From positions 3,162,001-3,226,000 of the forward strand of contig NZ_JAVIWS010000001.1 in NCBI RefSeq assembly GCF_031323975.1: 64,000 nt of DNA, given 5' to 3'. The notes under the pieces were generated by a model. It was not told where the DNA came from. It did no database searches and was given only the letters and a program-made list of their open reading frames with translations. This document shows positions 53,436 through 62,728 of this stretch, one piece after another. The position numbers were made by a program, and so were the translations under genes. Position 1 is the stretch's first letter; every line of letters begins with the position of its first letter. Source of the DNA: Escherichia ruysiae (GTDB taxonomy: Bacteria; Pseudomonadota; Gammaproteobacteria; Enterobacterales; Enterobacteriaceae).

Positions 53436-53612
53436 TATGCACATCTATTTTGCTGTTTTTTTCCGCAGTTGATACAATGCAATAAAATTGCCCTTGCGAA
53501 GGTCATTCGCTTTGGTTAGTATTCACACCCGCTTCAGTGGGAAAGATTAAATTCTCCCGCTTTATTGGTTGAAGCATTGGTACGCGGCAACTCCGCAAGG
53601 AACAGGTTGATT

Positions 53613-53945
53613 ATGTACGAAGCTCTTTTAGTAGTTTTCCTTATTGTAGCAATTGGCCTTGTTGGTCTGATCATGCTGCAGCAAGGTAAAGGCGCTGATA
53701 TGGGAGCCTCCTTCGGAGCAGGCGCTTCCGCTACGCTGTTTGGTTCAAGTGGTTCTGGCAACTTCATGACCCGTATGACGGCTGTGCTGGCAACGTTGTT
53801 CTTCATCATCAGTCTGGTGCTGGGTAACATCAACAGCAACAAAACCAATAAAGGTAGCGAATGGGAAAATCTGAGTGCTCCGGCGAAAACCGAACAAACT
53901 CAGCCAGCTGCTCCGGCTAAGCCGACCAGCGATATCCCGAACTAA
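53613..53945 (+). CDS. secG: Sec translocon subunit SecG
   Basis: 110 residues. Part of SecYEG in the inner membrane, speeding protein export. Two transmembrane helices (about 2-21 and 53-73) are separated by the conserved GKGADMGASFGAGAS loop. The C-terminal tail is polar and proline-rich (PAAPAKPTSDIPN). The start at 53613 follows AACAGGTTGATT. tRNA-Leu lies 13 bp downstream. Confidence 0.97.
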   Translation: MYEALLVVFLIVAIGLVGLIMLQQGKGADMGASFGAGASATLFGSSGSGNFMTRMTAVLATLFFIISLVLGNINSNKTNKGSEWENLSAPAKTEQTQPAAPAKPTSDIPN

Positions 53946-53958
53946 GAATAGTATCTGT

Positions 53959-54045
53959 GCTGAGGTGGTGGAATTGGTAGACACGCTACCTTGAGGTGGT
54001 AGTGCCCTAACGGGCTTGTGGGTTCGAGTCCCATCCTCAGTACCA
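53959..54045 (+). tRNA. leuU: tRNA-Leu (anticodon GAG)
   Basis: An 87-nt class II tRNA with all arms: acceptor GCTGAGG/CCTCAGT, D-arm, anticodon stem CTACC/GGTAG with loop TTGAGGT (GAG at 53993-53995), a long variable arm (GTGCCCTAACGGGCTT), T-arm with GGTTCGAGTCC, and encoded CCA. The acceptor and T-stem differ from K-12 leuU as I recall it, but the changes keep pairing, so it should be functional. It is the last feature of the K-12-like order. Confidence 0.96.
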
Positions 54046-54059
54046 ATATTCCAAAAGAA

Positions 54060-54083
54060 AGACGCTGAAAAGCGTCTTTTTTT
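54060..54083 (+). terminator. leuU terminator
   Basis: The stem AGACGCT/AGCGTCT (54060-54066 with 54071-54077, loop GAAA) is followed by T residues to 54083. It ends the secG-leuU transcript right before the junction with the nan-fim block. Confidence 0.92.
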
Positions 54084-54269
54084 GTATCTGTTGCCCGTCT
54101 GAATAGCGTTAAACAAAGTTTTCTGCATCATTATTTTCTACAAGCGCAATCGCCCTATGTTGCATAGGTTGTGATTACATAATCGTTGTAGATACCGTTT
54201 GAAGAGGCTGAAGATTACCAACAGAGTTCAGAGCATTGATGGATGCGCATAAATCAAATTTGTGAGTGC
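54084..54269. other. Junction between leuU region and nan-fim block
   Basis: 186 bp with no gene, joining two parts that are over 1 Mb apart in K-12. I saw no insertion sequence, integrase, or repeat of the leuU 3' end here. In K-12 argG follows leuU. The sequence holds the nanS 3' flank; no nanS terminator with a U-tract is obvious. Confidence 0.7.
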
Positions 54270-55256
54270 TCACTTTTCCTGCCAAAACCGCAAAATAACG
54301 TCAGCAAATTTGTCGGAAATAATCCCCCGACGGGCTGCCGAGCTAAAATGACTGCTTCGTAGCGCCGTTGTCCAGTTTTCTGGCGTTCGGTACGCTGAAC
54401 CGTAATATCCCGTGATTAAATCGTCCGGATCTTCATCAGGCTCGTTCGTTAGCCCTCGTTCGTCTTGTTGCTGGAAGCCGACAAAAATAATATTGGTTAA
54501 GGCATTCTTTTTGTAATTGCCATAAATAGTTTCGTACGCATGAGGATAATTTTCTTTCCAGTACCAGGTGGTATCGCCGCAGAACCACGGAGCAGCGGAA
54601 GTGTTAGTATTCAGAAGCTGAGAACTGTACTGCTTTAAATCCTTACGAAAGGCCTCAAGCATATTATTAAAATATTGAGGGTGTAACGCGTAGTCACTCG
54701 TCATTAAATCAAATTCGCCCTGCATCCAGCATACGCCGAGGAATTTATTCTGCGGATTCTTCGCCAGTGCAGCTCGCGTTCTGTTGACTAAATCCTGATA
54801 CAGCGGAGTATCCGTTCCCCAACGACATGCATCATGGCTGGCTCCGTGCTGTTCTGAATATGTTCCTTCGCAGCCTGCGGTAAAAGCCGATCCGCCACGA
54901 CAACAAGGAACGATGAGAACGCCAGCATTATCAGGAATGAAGGGGAGTAATTTCCGCGCAATATGTAGTGCCTGTCCAACTGTACCGTATTGTGTTTGAT
55001 GATCCGTTGCCAGAGGATGGTGATAATCCCGCATATCCTGAACATCGTGTGGGCAGTGAGTCAGTGGAATAATGTCATTAAATTGACATGACGAGCCACC
55101 GGGATGCGTCTGTGTAAATCTTGCCAGTTGTTTTATTCTGGGGTGAGGCGCATCTTCACTGTCTGGTAAGGGAAGTCCTTCGCCATATGCCATGGCATTA
55201 GATTGTCCTGCAACGGTAAGAACATAGTAATAATCGGGCGATATTATCGTGTTCAT
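54270..55256 (-). CDS. nanS: 9-O-acetyl-N-acetylneuraminate esterase NanS
   Basis: 328 residues, SASA-type SGNH esterase that removes O-acetyl groups from sialic acids so they can be used. The catalytic serine is in VAGQSNAMAYGEG. The conserved CCRGGSAF and CWMQGEFD segments form the oxyanion region. No signal peptide is seen. The 55256 start matches the E. coli product but has no clear SD; an ATG at 55295 has AAGGAG 11 bp upstream inside a hairpin. It is more divergent from K-12 than most genes here (about two dozen residue changes by eye). Confidence 0.92.
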   Translation of the reverse strand: MNTIISPDYYYVLTVAGQSNAMAYGEGLPLPDSEDAPHPRIKQLARFTQTHPGGSSCQFNDIIPLTHCPHDVQDMRDYHHPLATDHQTQYGTVGQALHIARKLLPFIPDNAGVLIVPCCRGGSAFTAGCEGTYSEQHGASHDACRWGTDTPLYQDLVNRTRAALAKNPQNKFLGVCWMQGEFDLMTSDYALHPQYFNNMLEAFRKDLKQYSSQLLNTNTSAAPWFCGDTTWYWKENYPHAYETIYGNYKKNALTNIIFVGFQQQDERGLTNEPDEDPDDLITGYYGSAYRTPENWTTALRSSHFSSAARRGIISDKFADVILRFWQEK

Positions 55257-55301
55257 ATATATGCGTAATTGAAATGACAACAGGTGATGAGCCATTGATC
55301 G

Positions 55302-55330: not shown

Positions 55331-56437
55331 TTAGTTTTGTACAGTAACTTTATTATCTTTCACAGAGAGCAACACTGAATCCGCCACAGCTTTGCCGCCC
55401 GTAGTTTCACCGCCAATAATCAATAAATTATTATTCCAGGGCAATGATACTCCGTAGGCCCGACCTTGCGACAGTTCGCCAGATTTCTCCCATTTCCCGT
55501 TATGCCAAAGATGAATATCGGCGCTATACGATTTTTTCAGACCTTCATGCGCATAGTTTTTACCGTTCTGGTAATTTTCTCGTGAACCTTTGAATCCGGC
55601 TCCCCCGGCAAATATAAGAGAGTCATTGCTAATACCTGCAAAACCGCCAGCTACGCCATCTGGGGAGGAGACGGGAGAAAGTTTATTCCATTTTATGCCA
55701 TTGCCGGTGAAATCAAGCTCAAATACAGCATCAGTTCGCAGTCCTGGTTTGGCTTCGCCATTAATAAGCCAGGTTTTATCACCTTTATTTACTACCGCTG
55801 CACCAGCCGTACCATACCAGGGGGATTCGCCAGTGTAACTCCATTGCTGTGTAGAGGGATCAAAAGACAACAGGAACTTATTGAAGAAATAATCTTCTGC
55901 TTTTTTGTCAAAATAGTGGGTGTTGATTTTATCTATAGCCGCTGAATCTTTTCCTGCCTCCTTGAGATCTTCAAAATAGCCATTAAAGATATTTTGGTTA
56001 ACGCCGCCAGTAATATAGGCTTTGCCGTTGTGTACAAAGGTCACATGACCTGCCATGCCCATCGGTGCGTGCGACATTAATTTAACCCAGGTATTGGTTT
56101 TGGGATTATATTTGTGTACGTCGTTGAATACCTGAGTTAACCCCTCACTGTTTTTACCAACACCGCCAAATACATACAAATTACCATCAATAAAGGCAGA
56201 GGTTGCTTGATCTCTCGGGCCAGCGGGGAATTCCGCCAGAGCTATCCATTTTTTATCTTTGGCTTGCGTATCCAGCTTGTACCATGCCGTACCTGCGCTA
56301 CCTAAACCAATGTAGACAGTGTCGTTATCAATTACACCAGTACCACTTTTAAATGGCACAGGAGTTTCTGGTAATACCGACGCGTTTGCGGCACATGAAG
56401 CCATCATGATAGCAAGTGCCGTTATTGTTTTATTCAT
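55331..56437 (-). CDS. nanM: N-acetylneuraminate epimerase (mutarotase) NanM
   Basis: 368 residues, periplasmic kelch-repeat beta-propeller that speeds conversion of alpha-sialic acid to the beta form. Signal peptide of about 19 residues (cleavage at ANA-SVL). Kelch signatures such as GNLYVFGGVGKNSEG and GKAYITGGVN recur. The start at 56437 (MNKTITALA) has GGAGACAG upstream; the long frame from 56545 overlaps nanC and is rejected. It lies 19 bp downstream of nanC. Confidence 0.97.
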   Translation of the reverse strand: MNKTITALAIMMASCAANASVLPETPVPFKSGTGVIDNDTVYIGLGSAGTAWYKLDTQAKDKKWIALAEFPAGPRDQATSAFIDGNLYVFGGVGKNSEGLTQVFNDVHKYNPKTNTWVKLMSHAPMGMAGHVTFVHNGKAYITGGVNQNIFNGYFEDLKEAGKDSAAIDKINTHYFDKKAEDYFFNKFLLSFDPSTQQWSYTGESPWYGTAGAAVVNKGDKTWLINGEAKPGLRTDAVFELDFTGNGIKWNKLSPVSSPDGVAGGFAGISNDSLIFAGGAGFKGSRENYQNGKNYAHEGLKKSYSADIHLWHNGKWEKSGELSQGRAYGVSLPWNNNLLIIGGETTGGKAVADSVLLSVKDNKVTVQN

Positions 56438-56456
56438 TGTGACTGTCTCCTGTCTA

Positions 56457-57173
56457 CTACAGTTTAAATGACACACCAATGCGATAACTGTTTTCCGATA
56501 AATTATCTCTACCGTTGTAAACACCCTGACGGTCAAGGTAGTCATATTCTATGTATGGCGTAATATCGGGCGTCATATGGTATTGTAGAACAAATGCATT
56601 TTCCGTCGCCCATTTCTTATGGTTTGCATAGCGATAATCGTTTTGTTTGCTGTACAGCGTCGTTTGCCATGCGAAGGTGAAATCACTATTAATATTGTAA
56701 GTGACATATCCATCCCAACGATGAACGTTATCACGAGACATATCACCAGATAAGTCTTGTTGTCGGTAAGCTTTCCAGTCGTAACGATAGCGAATGCCAA
56801 AATTGAGATCTTTTGTCGCATCCCATGACAGTTTTACGTAAGGTCCATAGCGTGTGCCATTGCTGCTAAAATGGGTTAACATTCCTGGGCGCACGGTCCA
56901 TTGATCATCAAGTTTAATCGCGTAATTAACTTCAACCTGAACATCATTTAATGCGGCATTTTCCTTTTTATTATCATGAATGGTATTCCAGGTATTACTT
57001 TCCATACTTGCCCACCATCCATTTTTCCACCCCTCACTGACTTTGAGTCGAGTTTCATAGGCATGGCTTCCACTACGATATCCACCACGCACATCCAGTG
57101 TTGCAGCCTGAGAAATTAATGGTGACGAAAAGCAGAGTAATAATACGCCAGAAAGTATTTTAGCCTTTTTCAT
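56457..57173 (-). CDS. nanC: Sialic acid outer-membrane channel NanC
   Basis: 238 residues, KdgM-family 12-stranded beta-barrel porin for N-acetylneuraminate, made when the general porins are low. Signal peptide of 23 residues (cleavage at SQA-ATL). The barrel ends with the outer-membrane C-terminal pattern SYRIGVSFKL (terminal hydrophobic residue). First gene of nanCMS. NanR operator copies lie about 420 bp upstream. Confidence 0.97.
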   Translation of the reverse strand: MKKAKILSGVLLLCFSSPLISQAATLDVRGGYRSGSHAYETRLKVSEGWKNGWWASMESNTWNTIHDNKKENAALNDVQVEVNYAIKLDDQWTVRPGMLTHFSSNGTRYGPYVKLSWDATKDLNFGIRYRYDWKAYRQQDLSGDMSRDNVHRWDGYVTYNINSDFTFAWQTTLYSKQNDYRYANHKKWATENAFVLQYHMTPDITPYIEYDYLDRQGVYNGRDNLSENSYRIGVSFKL

Positions 57174-58656
57174 AAATTTCACTCATTTGTAGAATACAGA
57201 AAGTAATACGAAGTCCGAATAAACAAATAGCATTTATGTTATGTGCTCTTTTTTGCCAGGCTTATAGCGTCATTGGCCACGGATAATTATGTTTTATTTT
57301 TTTTTGTATAATGCCTCCTGTGAGAAATTGCTTTCCACATAATTTAAGATAAACAGAGATCTGGATTAAATACCTGAGTATTAAATCTATTCTGATGTTT
57401 ATTTGATTTTAGTGTTCGTAAGCTATTTCACTTACTAAATCCATTTTTAGCCAGTGTCATAAAATGGATTGTTTGTTGATCTCATTTTCATACTCCTGTC
57501 AGACTGAAGTGCTCTTTCATCACCCGATAAGAGAGGACGCCAAGGATGTTTGTATTAGATTGCGATATGAGTCGTCTTATTTATCTCTTGTGTGTACCTT
57601 TATACCTGTTATACCAGATCAAAAATCACGCAATCCATACAACAAAACCAGATTTGCAATTCGCGTCACAAAATATGTCGATATTTTTCGAAGGTAAAGA
57701 TGTTATGTAAGGCCAGATGGTCATTCTCGACTGCCTTCATGAAACTGAAGTTTTGTTATTAACTAATTGTTTATAATGTATTTTTAATGATTTTCGGCAG
57801 TGCCGGGTTTACAAGCTAACTCCTCAGGTATGGTGAAAATGAGTGTTTATCCGCTATCAGATTGACAATAATTCTCATCATAAAATATGTTTTAACGTTC
57901 TGAGACTAAGGGCAACCTGGTATGTAGTAGAGGAGTTTCTGATCCTGTCCAGGGCTGGCTCGTTGATGTTCAGCACACTTCAGGATGGGGGGGAATCGGT
58001 TATTTGCCGTATCACCAGTAAATAGCAGTGAGTAAGAAAAGATTAAGTTGAAGTAACCACACCACATTTAACACGAATGTAGATGAAAAAAGGTGCGTGC
58101 AGACTTCCCCCCATATCTTTGGACAATACACGGTCTGGAAAGGAATATAACAATCTCACTGCATGAATTTACAAACCAAAGGGTAATAATGGCTAGGGAA
58201 CTAAGCATTAGCATGATAATAGCCACTTAAAAATTAAGGAATCTCATGAAATAGCAATTTTGAGGGAAATGGAGTTGACTAATAATGTTATATGTGAGAT
58301 AGCGCGTTGAACAAAAAATTAAATTTTGCTGAATTTTTTTATGTTGATTTTACTTGTTACAGAACATATCACGTGATATATAGATAAGATTAGTTACATT
58401 GATGATGAGGGTTATTATTAGATTCGTCTCAGATTGAAAATATATAAAAGAACATAGCATGCAAGAGCATAGCGTTGTATGGCAAAGTTATTATAAGTAG
58501 CTATCGCCATTCTATTTAAGTTCATTCAAAAGAGCTGGTCCACTTGCGTTAGTCATTAAGCAAACATTCGCTTTTATAAACATAATCAGGATTACAATGT
58601 TGGATTATTGCTAACCCAGCACAGCTAGTGCGCGTCTGTAATAATAAGGGAAAACG
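57174..58656. promoter_or_regulatory. nanC-fimB regulatory region
   Basis: 1483 bp between divergent nanC and fimB, AT-rich, without a credible gene. In E. coli this region controls both genes: NanR and NagC bind near nanC and activate fimB from a long distance, so sialic acid and GlcNAc lower FimB recombination. The NanR site is visible here at 57593-57623. Short frames in this region overlap that operator and have no family match. I could not place the NagC sites by eye. Confidence 0.8.
57593..57623 (-). promoter_or_regulatory. NanR operator of nanC/fimB
   Basis: On the minus strand two GGTATA repeats (57610-57615 and 57601-57606) and a third GGTACA (57593-57598) repeat the layout of the nanA operator. 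The 29 bp at 57595-57623 are identical to 10870-10898. Binding here is known to link sialic acid to nanC expression and to fimB control. Confidence 0.93.
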
Positions 58657-59259
58657 ATGAAGAATAAGGCTGATAACAAAAAAAGGAACTTCCTGACCCA
58701 CAGTGAAATCGAGTCACTCCTTAAAGCAGCAAATACCGGGCCTCATGCTGCACGCAATTATTGTCTGACTTTGCTTTGTTTTATTCATGGCTTTCGGGCG
58801 AGTGAAATTTGCCGATTGAGAATTTCGGATATTGATCTGAAGGCAAAGTGCATATATATCCATCGATTAAAAAAAGGCTTTTCAACGACGCACCCGCTAT
58901 TGAATAAAGAAGTTCAGGCTTTAAAAAACTGGTTGAGTACGCGTACTTCTTATCCACATGCTGAGAGTGAGTGGGTATTTTTATCACGCAAAGGGAATCC
59001 GCTTTCTCGTCAACAGTTTTACCATATTATCTCGACTTCAGGTGGTAATGCCGGGCTATCACTGGAGATTCATCCGCACATGTTACGCCATTCGTGTGGT
59101 TTTGCTTTGGCGAATATGGGAATAGATACACGACTTATCCAGGATTATCTTGGGCATCGTAATATTCGTCATACCGTCTGGTATACCGCCAGCAATGCAG
59201 GGCGTTTTTACGGCATCTGGGACAGACCCAGAGGTCGACAGCGTCACGCTGTTTTATAA
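58657..59259 (+). CDS. fimB: Tyrosine recombinase FimB
   Basis: 200 residues. Inverts the fim switch in both directions. Catalytic residues counted: Arg47 (HGFRASE), His141 and Arg144 (HPHMLRHSCG), Tyr176 (TVWYTAS). It lacks the N-terminal core-binding domain of larger integrases, as usual for Fim recombinases. Nearly identical to K-12 FimB as I recall it. Expression depends on the long region upstream. Confidence 0.98.
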   Translation: MKNKADNKKRNFLTHSEIESLLKAANTGPHAARNYCLTLLCFIHGFRASEICRLRISDIDLKAKCIYIHRLKKGFSTTHPLLNKEVQALKNWLSTRTSYPHAESEWVFLSRKGNPLSRQQFYHIISTSGGNAGLSLEIHPHMLRHSCGFALANMGIDTRLIQDYLGHRNIRHTVWYTASNAGRFYGIWDRPRGRQRHAVL

Positions 59260-59736
59260 AGATGGATGAGATACCAGGGATGGTGTTAAAACCTACATTA
59301 TTCTTACGATATTTCAATAATAATTAACCATTTATTAATTGATGTTATTGTTGGTGTAATTCTTAATTATCATAATAAACATTAGCTTAACCATACCCAT
59401 ACAAAATACAATGGTTTATTTTATTCGAAATAAACAAACAAAAGCATTCATAAATTTACATATCACTTAGATCCTTCTCTTTCTGCACTTTTTTCTTTAT
59501 TTTTTAAGCAACTGGGAGTTAATCAGGTGCTATCTATTGTTATATTGAATTAAATCAATGAAAATAGATGTTGTCACATCAGTGATATTTTATTTTTGTA
59601 TGATGTTTAATGTAATTGACTGATAACCACATAACTTTATGTGTGATTATCTTTTTATCTATTGGGCTAATTTTGACCGTTTGAGGTTTCCTATAGGTAT
59701 TCATTCAAATATATCTCAGTCAGGAGTACTACTATT
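59260..59736. other. fimB-fimE intergenic region
   Basis: 477 bp, very AT-rich, with no gene. It probably holds the fimE promoter and H-NS binding sequence. The fimE SD CAGGAGTAC lies at 59722-59730. Confidence 0.55.
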
Positions 59737-60333
59737 GTGAGTAAACGTCGTTATCTTACCGGTAAAGAAGTTCAGGCAATGATGCAAGCGGTTTGCTATG
59801 GGGCAACGGGCGCCAGAGATTATTGTCTTATTCTGTTGGCATATCGGCATGGGATGCGTATTAGTGAGCTGCTTGATTTGCATTATCAAGATCTTGACCT
59901 TAATGAAGGTCGAATAAATATTCGCCGACTGAAGAACGGATTTTCTACAGTTCACCCATTACGTTTTGATGAGCGTGAAGCTGTAGAACGCTGGACCCAG
60001 GAACGTGCTAACTGGAAAGGCGCTGAGCAGACCGACGCCATATTTATTTCCCGTCGTGGAAGTCGACTTTCTCGTCAGCAGGCCTATCGCATCATTCGTG
60101 ATGCCGGTATTGAAGCTGGAACCGTGACACAGACTCACCCTCATATGTTAAGACATGCTTGCGGTTATGAACTGGCGGAGCGTGGTGCTGATACCCGTTT
60201 AATTCAGGATTATCTGGGGCATCGAAATATTCGCCATACTGTGCGTTATACCGCCAGTAATGCAGCACGTTTTGCCGGATTATGGGAAAGAAATAATCTC
60301 ATAAACGAAAAATTAAAAAGAGAAGAGGTTTGA
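59737..60333 (+). CDS. fimE: Tyrosine recombinase FimE
   Basis: 198 residues, GTG start (GTGAGTAAACG) after CAGGAGTAC. FimE turns the switch mainly from ON to OFF. Active residues: Arg41 (HGMRISE), His136 and Arg139 (HPHMLRHACG), Tyr171 (TVRYTAS). A paralogue of FimB of nearly the same length. In E. coli fimE mRNA runs into the switch, so the orientation of fimS affects FimE level. Confidence 0.98.
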   Translation: MSKRRYLTGKEVQAMMQAVCYGATGARDYCLILLAYRHGMRISELLDLHYQDLDLNEGRINIRRLKNGFSTVHPLRFDEREAVERWTQERANWKGAEQTDAIFISRRGSRLSRQQAYRIIRDAGIEAGTVTQTHPHMLRHACGYELAERGADTRLIQDYLGHRNIRHTVRYTASNAARFAGLWERNNLINEKLKREEV

Positions 60334-60380
60334 TATAACTTATTGATAAGAAAATGAAAAAATAAAGAAATACAAGACAA

Positions 60381-60389
60381 TTGGGGCCA
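60381..60389 (+). repeat. fimS left inverted repeat (IRL)
   Basis: TTGGGGCCA, the recombination half-site on the fimE side, 47 bp after the fimE stop. It pairs with the copy at 60686-60694. Confidence 0.97.
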
Positions 60390-60399
60390 AACTGTCCAT

Positions 60400-60429
60400 A
60401 TCATAAAAAAGTTTCGTATTTTTTCTCAA
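60400..60429 (-). promoter_or_regulatory. fimA promoter inside fimS, facing fimE
   Basis: On the minus strand TTGAGA (60424-60429), 18-bp spacer, TATGAT (60400-60405), immediately beside the left repeat. In the ON state the same promoter would face fimA from beside the right repeat. Confidence 0.92.
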
Positions 60430-60685
60430 GCATAAAAACATCAAAAAACGACAAAAATCAACTAACTGTTTGATATGTAGACTATTTCTATTGTAAATTA
60501 ATTTCACATCACCTCCGCTTTACGTAAAGATAACGTCTCTCTTTCTCGAAGCAACTTCCTCATTCTTCTCTCCAAAAACCACCTCATTCAATATAAAAAT
60601 CTATAAATAAATATAATCACAGAACATAAAGCCAACAAATAAACTGAAAAAGTTCGTGCGCGATGCTTTCCTCTATGAGTCAAAA

Positions 60686-60694
60686 TGGCCCCAA
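60686..60694 (-). repeat. fimS right inverted repeat (IRR)
   Basis: TGGCCCCAA, the exact reverse complement of the left repeat, 118 bp before fimA. Confidence 0.97.
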
Positions 60695-60812
60695 ATGTTT
60701 CATTTTTTGGGGGGAAACTGTGCAGTGTTGGCAGTCAAACTCGTTTCCAAAACAAAGTGTACAGAACGACTGCCCATATTGATTTATACGTAGATTTAAA
60801 AAGGAAAGCAGC

Positions 60813-61361
60813 ATGAAAATTAAAACTCTGGCAATCGTTGTTCTGTCGGCTCTGTCCCTCAGTTCCACAGCGGCTTTGGCCGCTGCTACGACGGTAAATG
60901 GTGGGACAGTTCACTTTAAAGGGGAAGTTGTTAACGCCGCTTGTGCGGTTGATGCAGGCTCTGTTGATCAAACTGTTCAGTTAGGTCAAGTGCGTACCGC
61001 TTCGTTGGCACAAGAAGGTGCAACCAGTTCTGCTGTCGGTTTTAACATTCAGCTGAATGATTGCGATACCACTGTTGCAGACAAAGCAGCCATTGCCTTC
61101 CTTGGCACAGCAATTGATGGAAATCATACCAACGTACTGGCTCTGCAGAGTTCAGCTGCGGGCAGCGCAACAAATGTTGGTGTGCAGATCCTGGACAGAA
61201 CGGGTACTGCGCTGGCGCTGGACGGTGCGACATTTAGCGCACAAACAACCCTGAACAACGGAACCAACATCATTCCGTTCCAGGCACGTTATTTTGCAAC
61301 CGGTGCTGCAACCCCTGGTGCTGCTAATGCGGATGCGACCTTCAAGGTTCAGTATCAATAA
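60813..61361 (+). CDS. fimA: Type 1 fimbrial major subunit FimA
   Basis: 182 residues. Main pilus rod protein. Signal peptide of 23 residues (cleavage at LA-AATT), two conserved cysteines (VNAACAVD and LNDCDTT) and the C-terminal beta-zipper motif ending KVQYQ. SD GGAAAGCAGC precedes the start. Expression depends on fimS, which is OFF here. Surface regions differ from K-12 in several residues, as is common for FimA. Confidence 0.98.
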
Positions 61362-61426
61362 CCTACTCAGGTTTAGGGACGTCATTATGGGCAAGGATGC
61401 CCACTCCTTGTGCGATAAGAATAATG

Positions 61427-61966
61427 ATGAAAAGGACGAGATTATTTCTAGTAGCGTTGTTGCTGCCGATGTTTGCTCTGGCCGGAAATAAATGGAACAC
61501 CACGTTGCCCGGCGGAAATATGCAATTTCAGGGCGTCATTATTGCGGAAACTTGCCGGATTGAAGCCGGTGATAAACAAATGACGGTCAATATGGGGCAA
61601 ATCAGCAGTAACCGGTTTCATGCGGTAGGGGAAGATAGCGCACCGGTGCCTTTTGTTATTCATTTACGGGAATGTAGCACGGTGGTGAGTGAACGTGTGG
61701 GCGTGGCTTTTCACGGTGTCGCGGATGGTAAAAATCCGGATGTGCTTTCTGTGGGAGAGGGGCCAGGGATAGCAACCAATATTGGTGTAGCGTTGTTTGA
61801 TGATGAAGGAAACCTCGTACCGATTAATCGTCCTCCTGTGAACTGGAAACGGCTTTACTCTGGCTCTACTTCGCTACATTTCATCGCCAAATATCGTGCT
61901 ACCGGGCGTCGGGTTACTGGCGGCATCGCCAATGCCCAGGCCTGGTTCTCTTTAACCTATCAGTAA
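61427..61966 (+). CDS. fimI: Fimbrial protein FimI
   Basis: 179 residues, pilin-like protein with signal peptide ([19 protein letters not shown]) and two cysteines (AETCRIE, LRECSTV). In E. coli FimI is needed for pilus biogenesis and is thought to end rod growth at the base. The start at 61427 begins the signal peptide; the longer frame from 61397 adds residues before it and is not preferred. It ends 36 bp before fimC. Confidence 0.95.
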
Positions 61967-62002
61967 TTGTTCAGCAGACAATGTGATAACAGGAACAGGA
62001 CA

Positions 62003-62728
62003 GTGAGTAATAAAAACGTCAATGTAAGGAAATCGCAGGAAATAACATTCTGCTTACTGGCAGGTATCCTGATGATCATGGCAATGATGGTTGCCGGACG
62101 TGCTGAAGCGGGAGTGGCCTTAGGTGCGACACGCGTAATTTATCCTGCAGGGCAAAAACAAGTGCAACTTGCCGTGACAAATAATGATGAGAATAGCACC
62201 TATTTAATTCAATCATGGGTAGAAAATGCCGATGGTGTAAAGGATGGTCGTTTTATCGTGACGCCACCTCTGTTTGCGATGAAGGGAAAAAAAGAGAATA
62301 CCTTGCGTATTCTTGATGCCACAAATAACCAATTGCCGCAGGATCGGGAAAGTTTGTTCTGGATGAATGTCAAAGCGATTCCGTCAATGGATAAATCAAA
62401 ATTGACCGAGAATACGCTACAGCTCGCAATTATCAGCCGCATTAAACTGTACTATCGCCCGGCTAAATTAGCGTTGCCACCCGATCAGGCCGCAGAAAAA
62501 TTAAGATTCCGTCGCGGCGCAAATTCTCTGACGTTGATTAACCCGACACCCTATTACCTGACGGTAACAGAGTTAAATGCCGGAACACGGATTCTTGAAA
62601 ATGCATTGGTGCCTCCAATGGGCGAAAGCACGGTTAAATTGCCTCCTGATGCAGGAAGCAATATTACTTACCGAACAATAAATGATTATGGCGCACTTAC
62701 CCCAAAAATGACGGGCGTAATGGAATAA
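62003..62728 (+). CDS. fimC: Periplasmic fimbrial chaperone FimC
   Basis: 241 residues, GTG start with AGGAACAGGA upstream. The signal peptide ends at about residue 36 (GRAEA-GVALG). It has two Ig-like domains and binds subunits by donor strand complementation. The anchoring Arg (GATRVIYP) and Lys (RIKLYYRP) are present, and the typical chaperone signature follows. The longer ATG frame from 61967 starts right after the fimI stop and is not preferred. Confidence 0.97.
   Translation: MSNKNVNVRKSQEITFCLLAGILMIMAMMVAGRAEAGVALGATRVIYPAGQKQVQLAVTNNDENSTYLIQSWVENADGVKDGRFIVTPPLFAMKGKKENTLRILDATNNQLPQDRESLFWMNVKAIPSMDKSKLTENTLQLAIISRIKLYYRPAKLALPPDQAAEKLRFRRGANSLTLINPTPYYLTVTELNAGTRILENALVPPMGESTVKLPPDAGSNITYRTINDYGALTPKMTGVME

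Follow-up and report, generated by a model that had tools for sequence, protein, structure and literature searches.

The tRNA gene leuU of Escherichia ruysiae is joined directly to the nan-fim gene block, and this join is very probably one end of a reciprocal inversion of 1.15-1.17 Mb centred on oriC. The inverted part amounts to about a quarter of the chromosome. The inversion is of a well-known, origin-symmetric kind, of which it is a clean, species-level and nested example. The window, i.e. the whole stretch of 64,000 nucleotides that was analysed, corresponds to positions 3162001-3226000 of the 4540375-bp contig C1 of the genome referred to here as G000.

The leuU-nanS join and its reciprocal join

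According to the ARAGORN tRNA call and the list of open reading frames, leuU and nanS are separated by a spacer of 224 bp (54046-54269), as the initial annotation had it (Table 1). The order nanS-nanM-nanC-fimB-fimE-fimA beyond the join is that of K-12, and from position 54268 onward the window follows the minute 98 region in forward direction. The claim that the order up to leuU is also that of K-12 held for 31195-54085, which blastn aligned with K-12 stretches at 94-97% identity; the first 31 kb of the window lie outside the alignment. That argG follows leuU in K-12 was right with regard to the neighbourhood, but yhbX sits between the two genes. Neither an IS element nor an integrase was found between leuU and nanS, in agreement with the initial annotation. 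The 9-base inverted-repeat motif that we take to be that of the fim switch occurs twice between fimE and fimA, with both copies within 60381-60694 (314 bp end to end).

Table 1 Features at and around the leuU-nanS join, in window coordinates.
Feature	Position	Strand	Basis and remarks
Stretch of the inverted segment	31195..54085	+	K-12 3344996 down to 3322033; rpoN side to secG, leuU and leuU terminator
leuU, tRNA-Leu(GAG)	53959..54045	+	ARAGORN
Terminator-like hairpin of leuU, retained at the join	54054..54083	+	Pattern scan; matched in relatives
Possible last piece of the leuU flank	54084..54110	+	Similarity to relatives stops at 54082-54110
112 bp of unmatched source; break in or beside it	54111..54222		No match found
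Native downstream flank of nanS	54223..54269	-	G009 (81%) and E. coli CFSAN061763 (83%)
nanS, first gene beyond the inversion	54270..55295	-	ORF, uninterrupted, 341 aa; K-12 match from 4536612
nanM and nanC reading frames	55331..57182	-	ORFs
fimB, fimE, fimA, fimI, fimC	58657..62728	+	K-12 order, continuing past the window end

The sign named beforehand for an inversion, argG adjoining sequence from the leuX side, was found 1.17 Mb away. A K-12 query spanning nusA-argG-yhbX-leuU splits in G000 into a part with argG at 2042373-2046418 on the plus strand and a part with leuU at 3215819-3216085 on the minus strand. After argG, about 16.6 kb of variable sequence are followed by leuX (2063037-2063122, minus strand), and past leuX by yjgR, lptG, lptF, pepA and further genes in reverse K-12 order, with gaps, down to K-12 4452000, i.e. 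the minute 96-97 region read backwards. To the right of nanS, the order is that of K-12, again with gaps, through fim, gntP, uxuAB and the yji genes to btsT at 3257225, 41 kb in all. Within the segment, the comparison with K-12 consists of about a dozen stretches with the order between them interpolated, and there may be further small rearrangements inside the 1.2 Mb.

The alternative raised by the initial annotation, insertion of a mobile nan-fim block at the leuU tRNA gene in the manner of genomic islands, has in its favour the position of the join directly after a tRNA gene. Since K-12 order continues past fim through btsT, the right side of such a block is unbounded and no mobile block was inserted. 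Moreover, argG lies 1.17 Mb away and not on the far side of the block, no second copy of the leuU 3' end (last 12 bases) occurs on either strand of the window, and the reading frames from leuU to fimB contain no integrase. The hallmarks of islands, i.e. an integrase next to the tRNA gene, a repeated tRNA 3' end and a bounded block, are thus missing at leuU, and the chance that the join arose in this way is close to nil. Recombination between leuU and leuX, both tRNA-Leu genes, was considered as the exchange site and rejected, because the gene upstream of each tRNA gene has stayed in place, with both breaks situated past the tRNA 3' ends.

The inversion was seen in both genomes of the species that were compared (n=2). 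The second strain, G007 (the same as CP089930.1, to which it is identical over 4201 bp; chromosome of 4438520 bp), has the same join, and matches a 1201-bp query across it over the whole length at a rounded 100%. The reciprocal join is found there at 99.8% over 1030 bp, with the same arrangement at argG-leuX as in G000 but a shorter interval. Although filed as Escherichia coli strain E69, CP089930.1 belongs to the species of the window genome and shares 94.7% identity with K-12 across 14 kb. The window genome is likewise outside E. coli sensu stricto: across about 14 kb, its identity to K-12 is 94.8%, compared with 98.3% for G002. That the join is an artefact of assembly is hardly conceivable, as both joins are common, base for base or nearly so, to two separately deposited chromosomes which differ elsewhere by a 10.8 kb element and an IS copy. 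On present sequence evidence, the join thus appears to be no accident of assembly.

Outside the species, the leuU-nanS join was absent from all ten genomes of other Escherichia species, in which the match including leuU ends 37 to 65 bp past leuU. The stretch 53600-54700 was not found at 80% coverage in any of 5426 complete E. coli genomes, a collection from which closely similar genomes may be missing; in 5122 of them, the K-12-like arrangement running from the argG end through yhbX and leuU into secG was covered to at least 80%. Judged by title or the beginning of the abstract, and mostly among top-ranked papers, no paper describing this inversion was found. CP089930 is named in one paper, whose available text concerns an RNA thermometer.

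These distributions bear on the question of which lineage changed. The initial annotation had named an ancestral status of the leuU-nanS order in relatives as a possible objection; the relatives were found to have argG-leuU instead, and leuX near nanS. All ten genomes of other Escherichia species retain argG and leuU together, with yhbX present in five; in those lacking yhbX, the gap in the match measures 155-1156 bp. In E. whittamii, argG and leuU are 324 bp apart on contig C39, and leuX (C11:337681-337969) and a nanS remnant (C11:332664-332870) lie within 5 kb of each other. A reading in which K-12 is the changed one could point to argG itself, which is away from secG in many of the more distant Enterobacterales (30 of 80 loci have it there, 45 long ones do not); argG beside secG was therefore discarded as an ancestral-state test across the order, and nusA was used in its place. 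This next gene block lies downstream of secG in 72 of the 80 named loci, and the eight misses comprise E69 itself, one Kosakonia with argG at 8.4 kb, in which nusA would be located outside the flank covered, and six further loci of short length. We consider an ancestral leuU-nanS order very improbable; since the relatives have argG beside leuU and leuX near nanS, the gene orders compared point to this species as the one in which the change happened. One of the loci examined, CACSKA010000008.1 (L059), is titled Chryseobacterium sp. 18061, but its SecG shares 90% identity with the Escherichia protein, and the record is probably a mislabelled enterobacterial assembly.

Breakpoints and possible modes of exchange

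In an ancestor with K-12-like order, one break would have occurred on one replichore between argG and leuU, within what has become a yhbX remnant, and a second one on the other replichore, where it separated nanS from the far end of the leuX island. The intervening segment, with oriC near its middle, would then have been rejoined in the opposite direction. At the reciprocal join, the argG frame is whole and is followed by a degraded yhbX end (170 bp aligned including the argG end, 83% identity to K-12) and by an IS3-family fragment near 2046664-2046852, about 91% identical to E. coli copies. What lies past this fragment probably represents the remainder of the leuX island. Read in G007, where the interval is 99.7% identical to that of G000 over 5243 bp, the region between argG and leuX contains the Pfam restriction-enzyme families RE_Eco47II and RE_SinI, a C5 methylase and a Mutator-type (IS256-like) transposase; the genes of these two families occur there with a single C5 methylase (G007 2472683-2476824). 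In G000, a 10.8 kb P4-like element with a phage-type integrase next to leuX and a primase-helicase (C1 2052250-2063043) lies in addition in this interval, and G007 lacks it. The end of the element away from leuX carries a repeat of 14 bases from the leuX 3' end.

No repeat was found to be shared by the two outer joins, with a best match between them no better than E 0.06. The ends, which in K-12 terms are argG-yhbX/leuU and the leuX island/nanS, are not rrn operons, and the IS3-family fragment is present at the argG end only, so that neither an rrn-mediated nor an IS-mediated inversion can be read from the joins as they stand; an IS copy or mediating repeat at leuU/nanS may have been lost earlier. 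A REP-like repeat was also considered as mediator of the outer inversion but found no support: the gap between argG and leuU in E. whittamii matches the lptG-yjgR spacer and a uxu spacer of that species, and nothing in its leuX-nanS interval. The 112 bp between the leuU flank and the nanS flank had no match in E. coli genomes or plasmids, nor elsewhere in their own genome or in the 1.235 Mb compared.

Two modes of exchange were weighed against these findings. In the first, two inversely oriented IS3-family copies, located next to yhbX and in the leuX island respectively, would have undergone homologous recombination, and the copy at leuU/nanS would have been lost afterwards. The IS3-family fragment at the argG join and the IS3-family pieces held by the leuX island of G007 speak for such an event, to which we give a little under an even chance; on the other side, leuU/nanS is devoid of IS3-like sequence, the fragment has no second copy in the 1.235 Mb compared, and the outer joins share nothing. 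This last point, together with the 112 bp of unmatched filler, favours instead a repeat-free joining of broken ends, e.g. at two replication forks, with short filler sequence, as does the near-symmetry of both nested inversions (see below). Symmetry is, however, also expected as a residue of selection, and the inversions examined in the available text of PMC9584773 had the same repeat at both ends; repeat-free joining is plausible, but we would not quite put it at evens. A smaller share of the probability goes to other mechanisms. The points of exchange might have been equidistant from oriC; the event may have happened at the two replication forks, and an IS3-family copy next to yhbX may have primed it.

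Symmetry around oriC and a nested inversion

The origin of replication is located at 2621868-2622099 in G000, inside the inverted segment, and the minimum of the cumulative GC skew over the 1.235 Mb compared is at 2621721. The arms of the segment measure 575.7 kb (to the argG end) or 558.9 kb (to leuX) versus 594 kb in G000, and 605.1 and 617.5 kb in G007; mapped onto K-12, the two ends lie at oriC distances of 603.8-605.8 and 570.6-610.8 kb. The difference between the arms, 18.5-35.2 kb, corresponds to 1.6-3.1% of the segment, so that the ends are at nearly equal distance from oriC; with oriC placed at random in the segment, the chance of an asymmetry this small is 1.6-3.1%, for end points that were selected after the fact. 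Sampled every 100 kb, the cumulative GC skew decreases as far as oriC and increases beyond it, without reversal at either join, i.e. strand relative to replication is kept. Both G000 and G007 carry the reciprocal joins of a single inverted segment, as characterizes an origin-symmetric inversion. With 1.15-1.17 Mb including oriC, the segment is well above the 50 kb size limit of PMC9584773. A dif-like site with one mismatch at 402105 divides the chromosome into replichores of 2220 and 2321 kb. For this search, what we take to be the exact dif sequence served as query; it was found in five of 12 genomes, not including G000, and with up to two mismatches in four of five further genomes. The inversion may have persisted because its near-symmetry preserves oriC distance, orientation relative to the forks and the balance of the replichores, and because it spared argG, leuU and nanS; such tolerance through symmetry would be in line with established knowledge.

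Anchors in the segment run backwards relative to K-12 except from aldB (3754834) to yiiG (4088068), which run forwards at G000 2467633-2781615. This inner inversion of 0.32 Mb has the joins rhaM/aldB and yiiG/ysaD-sgbE and arms of 155.4 and 159.7 kb. Both joins also occur in G007, G006, G010 and G011 (E. whittamii Sa2BVA5); in G009 (E1V33) there is one, where yiiG adjoins the segment found next to sgbE in G004, and aldB lies close to a contig end. Outside this species, the inner inversion is therefore found in E. whittamii and three other species, one of them by a single join. K-12-like adjacency on at least one side was seen in G001 (E. albertii), G002, G003, G004, G005 and G008, and in the outgroups G020 and G034 rhaM lies at a great distance from the yia block (both parts well matched; 20 of 60 genomes of the family with any match). 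The inner inversion is derived. The outer inversion was seen in G000 and G007 only, and since relatives have the inner inversion without it, the inner one is probably older. Relative to K-12, the net outcome is that the flanks leuU-yia and rha-leuX swapped replichores at roughly unchanged distance from oriC, with the origin core back in its old orientation. Each of four loci (20.4 kb, 13 rows) yielded a topology of its own, and a single clade of inner-inversion carriers was rejected on the 20-kb tree (AU p 0.00013); with so short an alignment in a genus with much recombination, we place little weight on this tree. The spacing at one inner join is identical in G006 and G010.

Related rearrangements and gene order in the genus

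Origin-symmetric, or replication-associated, inversions were reportedly described by Eisen et al. in 2000, and the inversion of E. coli K-12 W3110 lies between rrn operons. The available text of D'Iorio and Dewar 2022 (PMC9584773) gives origin-symmetric rearrangements for 247 of 313 bacterial species examined; like the inversion described here, they are of megabase size, include oriC, have nearly equal arms and can be nested or successive. In contrast to those, our inversion lacks a common end repeat and separates species rather than strains of one. The W3110 inversion around oriC, as presented in the accessible part of PMC4585315, is likewise a large one in Escherichia, but ours ends at argG/leuU and the leuX island/nanS and not in rrn operons, and is shared by the two strains of a species, whereas W3110 is a single laboratory line. 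The net result of the two nested inversions resembles the inter-replichore translocation in the text available from Khedkar and Seshasayee 2016 (PMC4889656), in which flanks change replichore with oriC distance about kept; in the present case, the joins as well as the succession of two inversions could be resolved, and the inner one is found alone in relatives. As far as the consulted part of Touchon et al. 2009 (PMC2617782) goes, E. fergusonii is another non-coli Escherichia with changed gene order.

Genome G005 has breaks in the same two neighbourhoods as this species, at dolP/yraQ and lptG/yjgR, with lptG joined to dolP and yjgR to yraQ. We take G005 to be E. fergusonii (ATCC 35469). In G006, dolP is joined to lptG via a yjgR-leuX-IS4 insert, and fim to yraQ via an IS911-like stretch. 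The two genomes, which are not sisters in the tree, share the dolP/lptG join and a join of yraQ to the leuX-fim side (G005 C1 3204.9 and 4455.7 kb; G006 C1 2613-2620 and 3929-3934 kb), and their ends differ from those of this species by 23-25 kb and 8-48 kb in K-12 coordinates. Both K-12 spacers, dolP/yraQ and lptG/yjgR, contain REP-like palindromes, labelled by eye. The yjgR-leuX-IS4 stretch of G006 occurs twice (C1 211381-215130 and 3930299-3934047, with equal K-12 match scores), which looks like a recent duplication including a tRNA gene. The joins of G006 are about 644-651 and 665-670 kb from oriC. Those of G005 are at about 309 and 942 kb and hence far from symmetric, so that symmetry is not a rule in the genus. 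It is conceivable, though we regard it as unlikely, that exchange has recurred in the genus between the argG/dolP and leuX/nan-fim neighbourhoods, which lie on different replichores at about 0.6 Mb from oriC; this species would then have joined them in one way, and G005 and G006 in another. If so, then together with the inner inversion, whose carriers form no single clade on the 20-kb tree, such recurrence would imply that oriC-symmetric gene order in Escherichia is inverted time and again at favoured sites, or is transferred from one lineage to another.

The K-12 region 4388-4396 kb, which presumably holds datA, is now on the other replichore, 454-462 kb from oriC compared with 462-470 kb in K-12. 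In E. coli, gene order is stable, with exactly the K-12 order in more than half of 21 genomes according to the available text of PMC2617782. Two nested oriC-symmetric inversions in a close relative provide a natural test of the constraint on gene order: oriC distance, strand and replichore balance are roughly kept, whereas the replichore of a gene is not.
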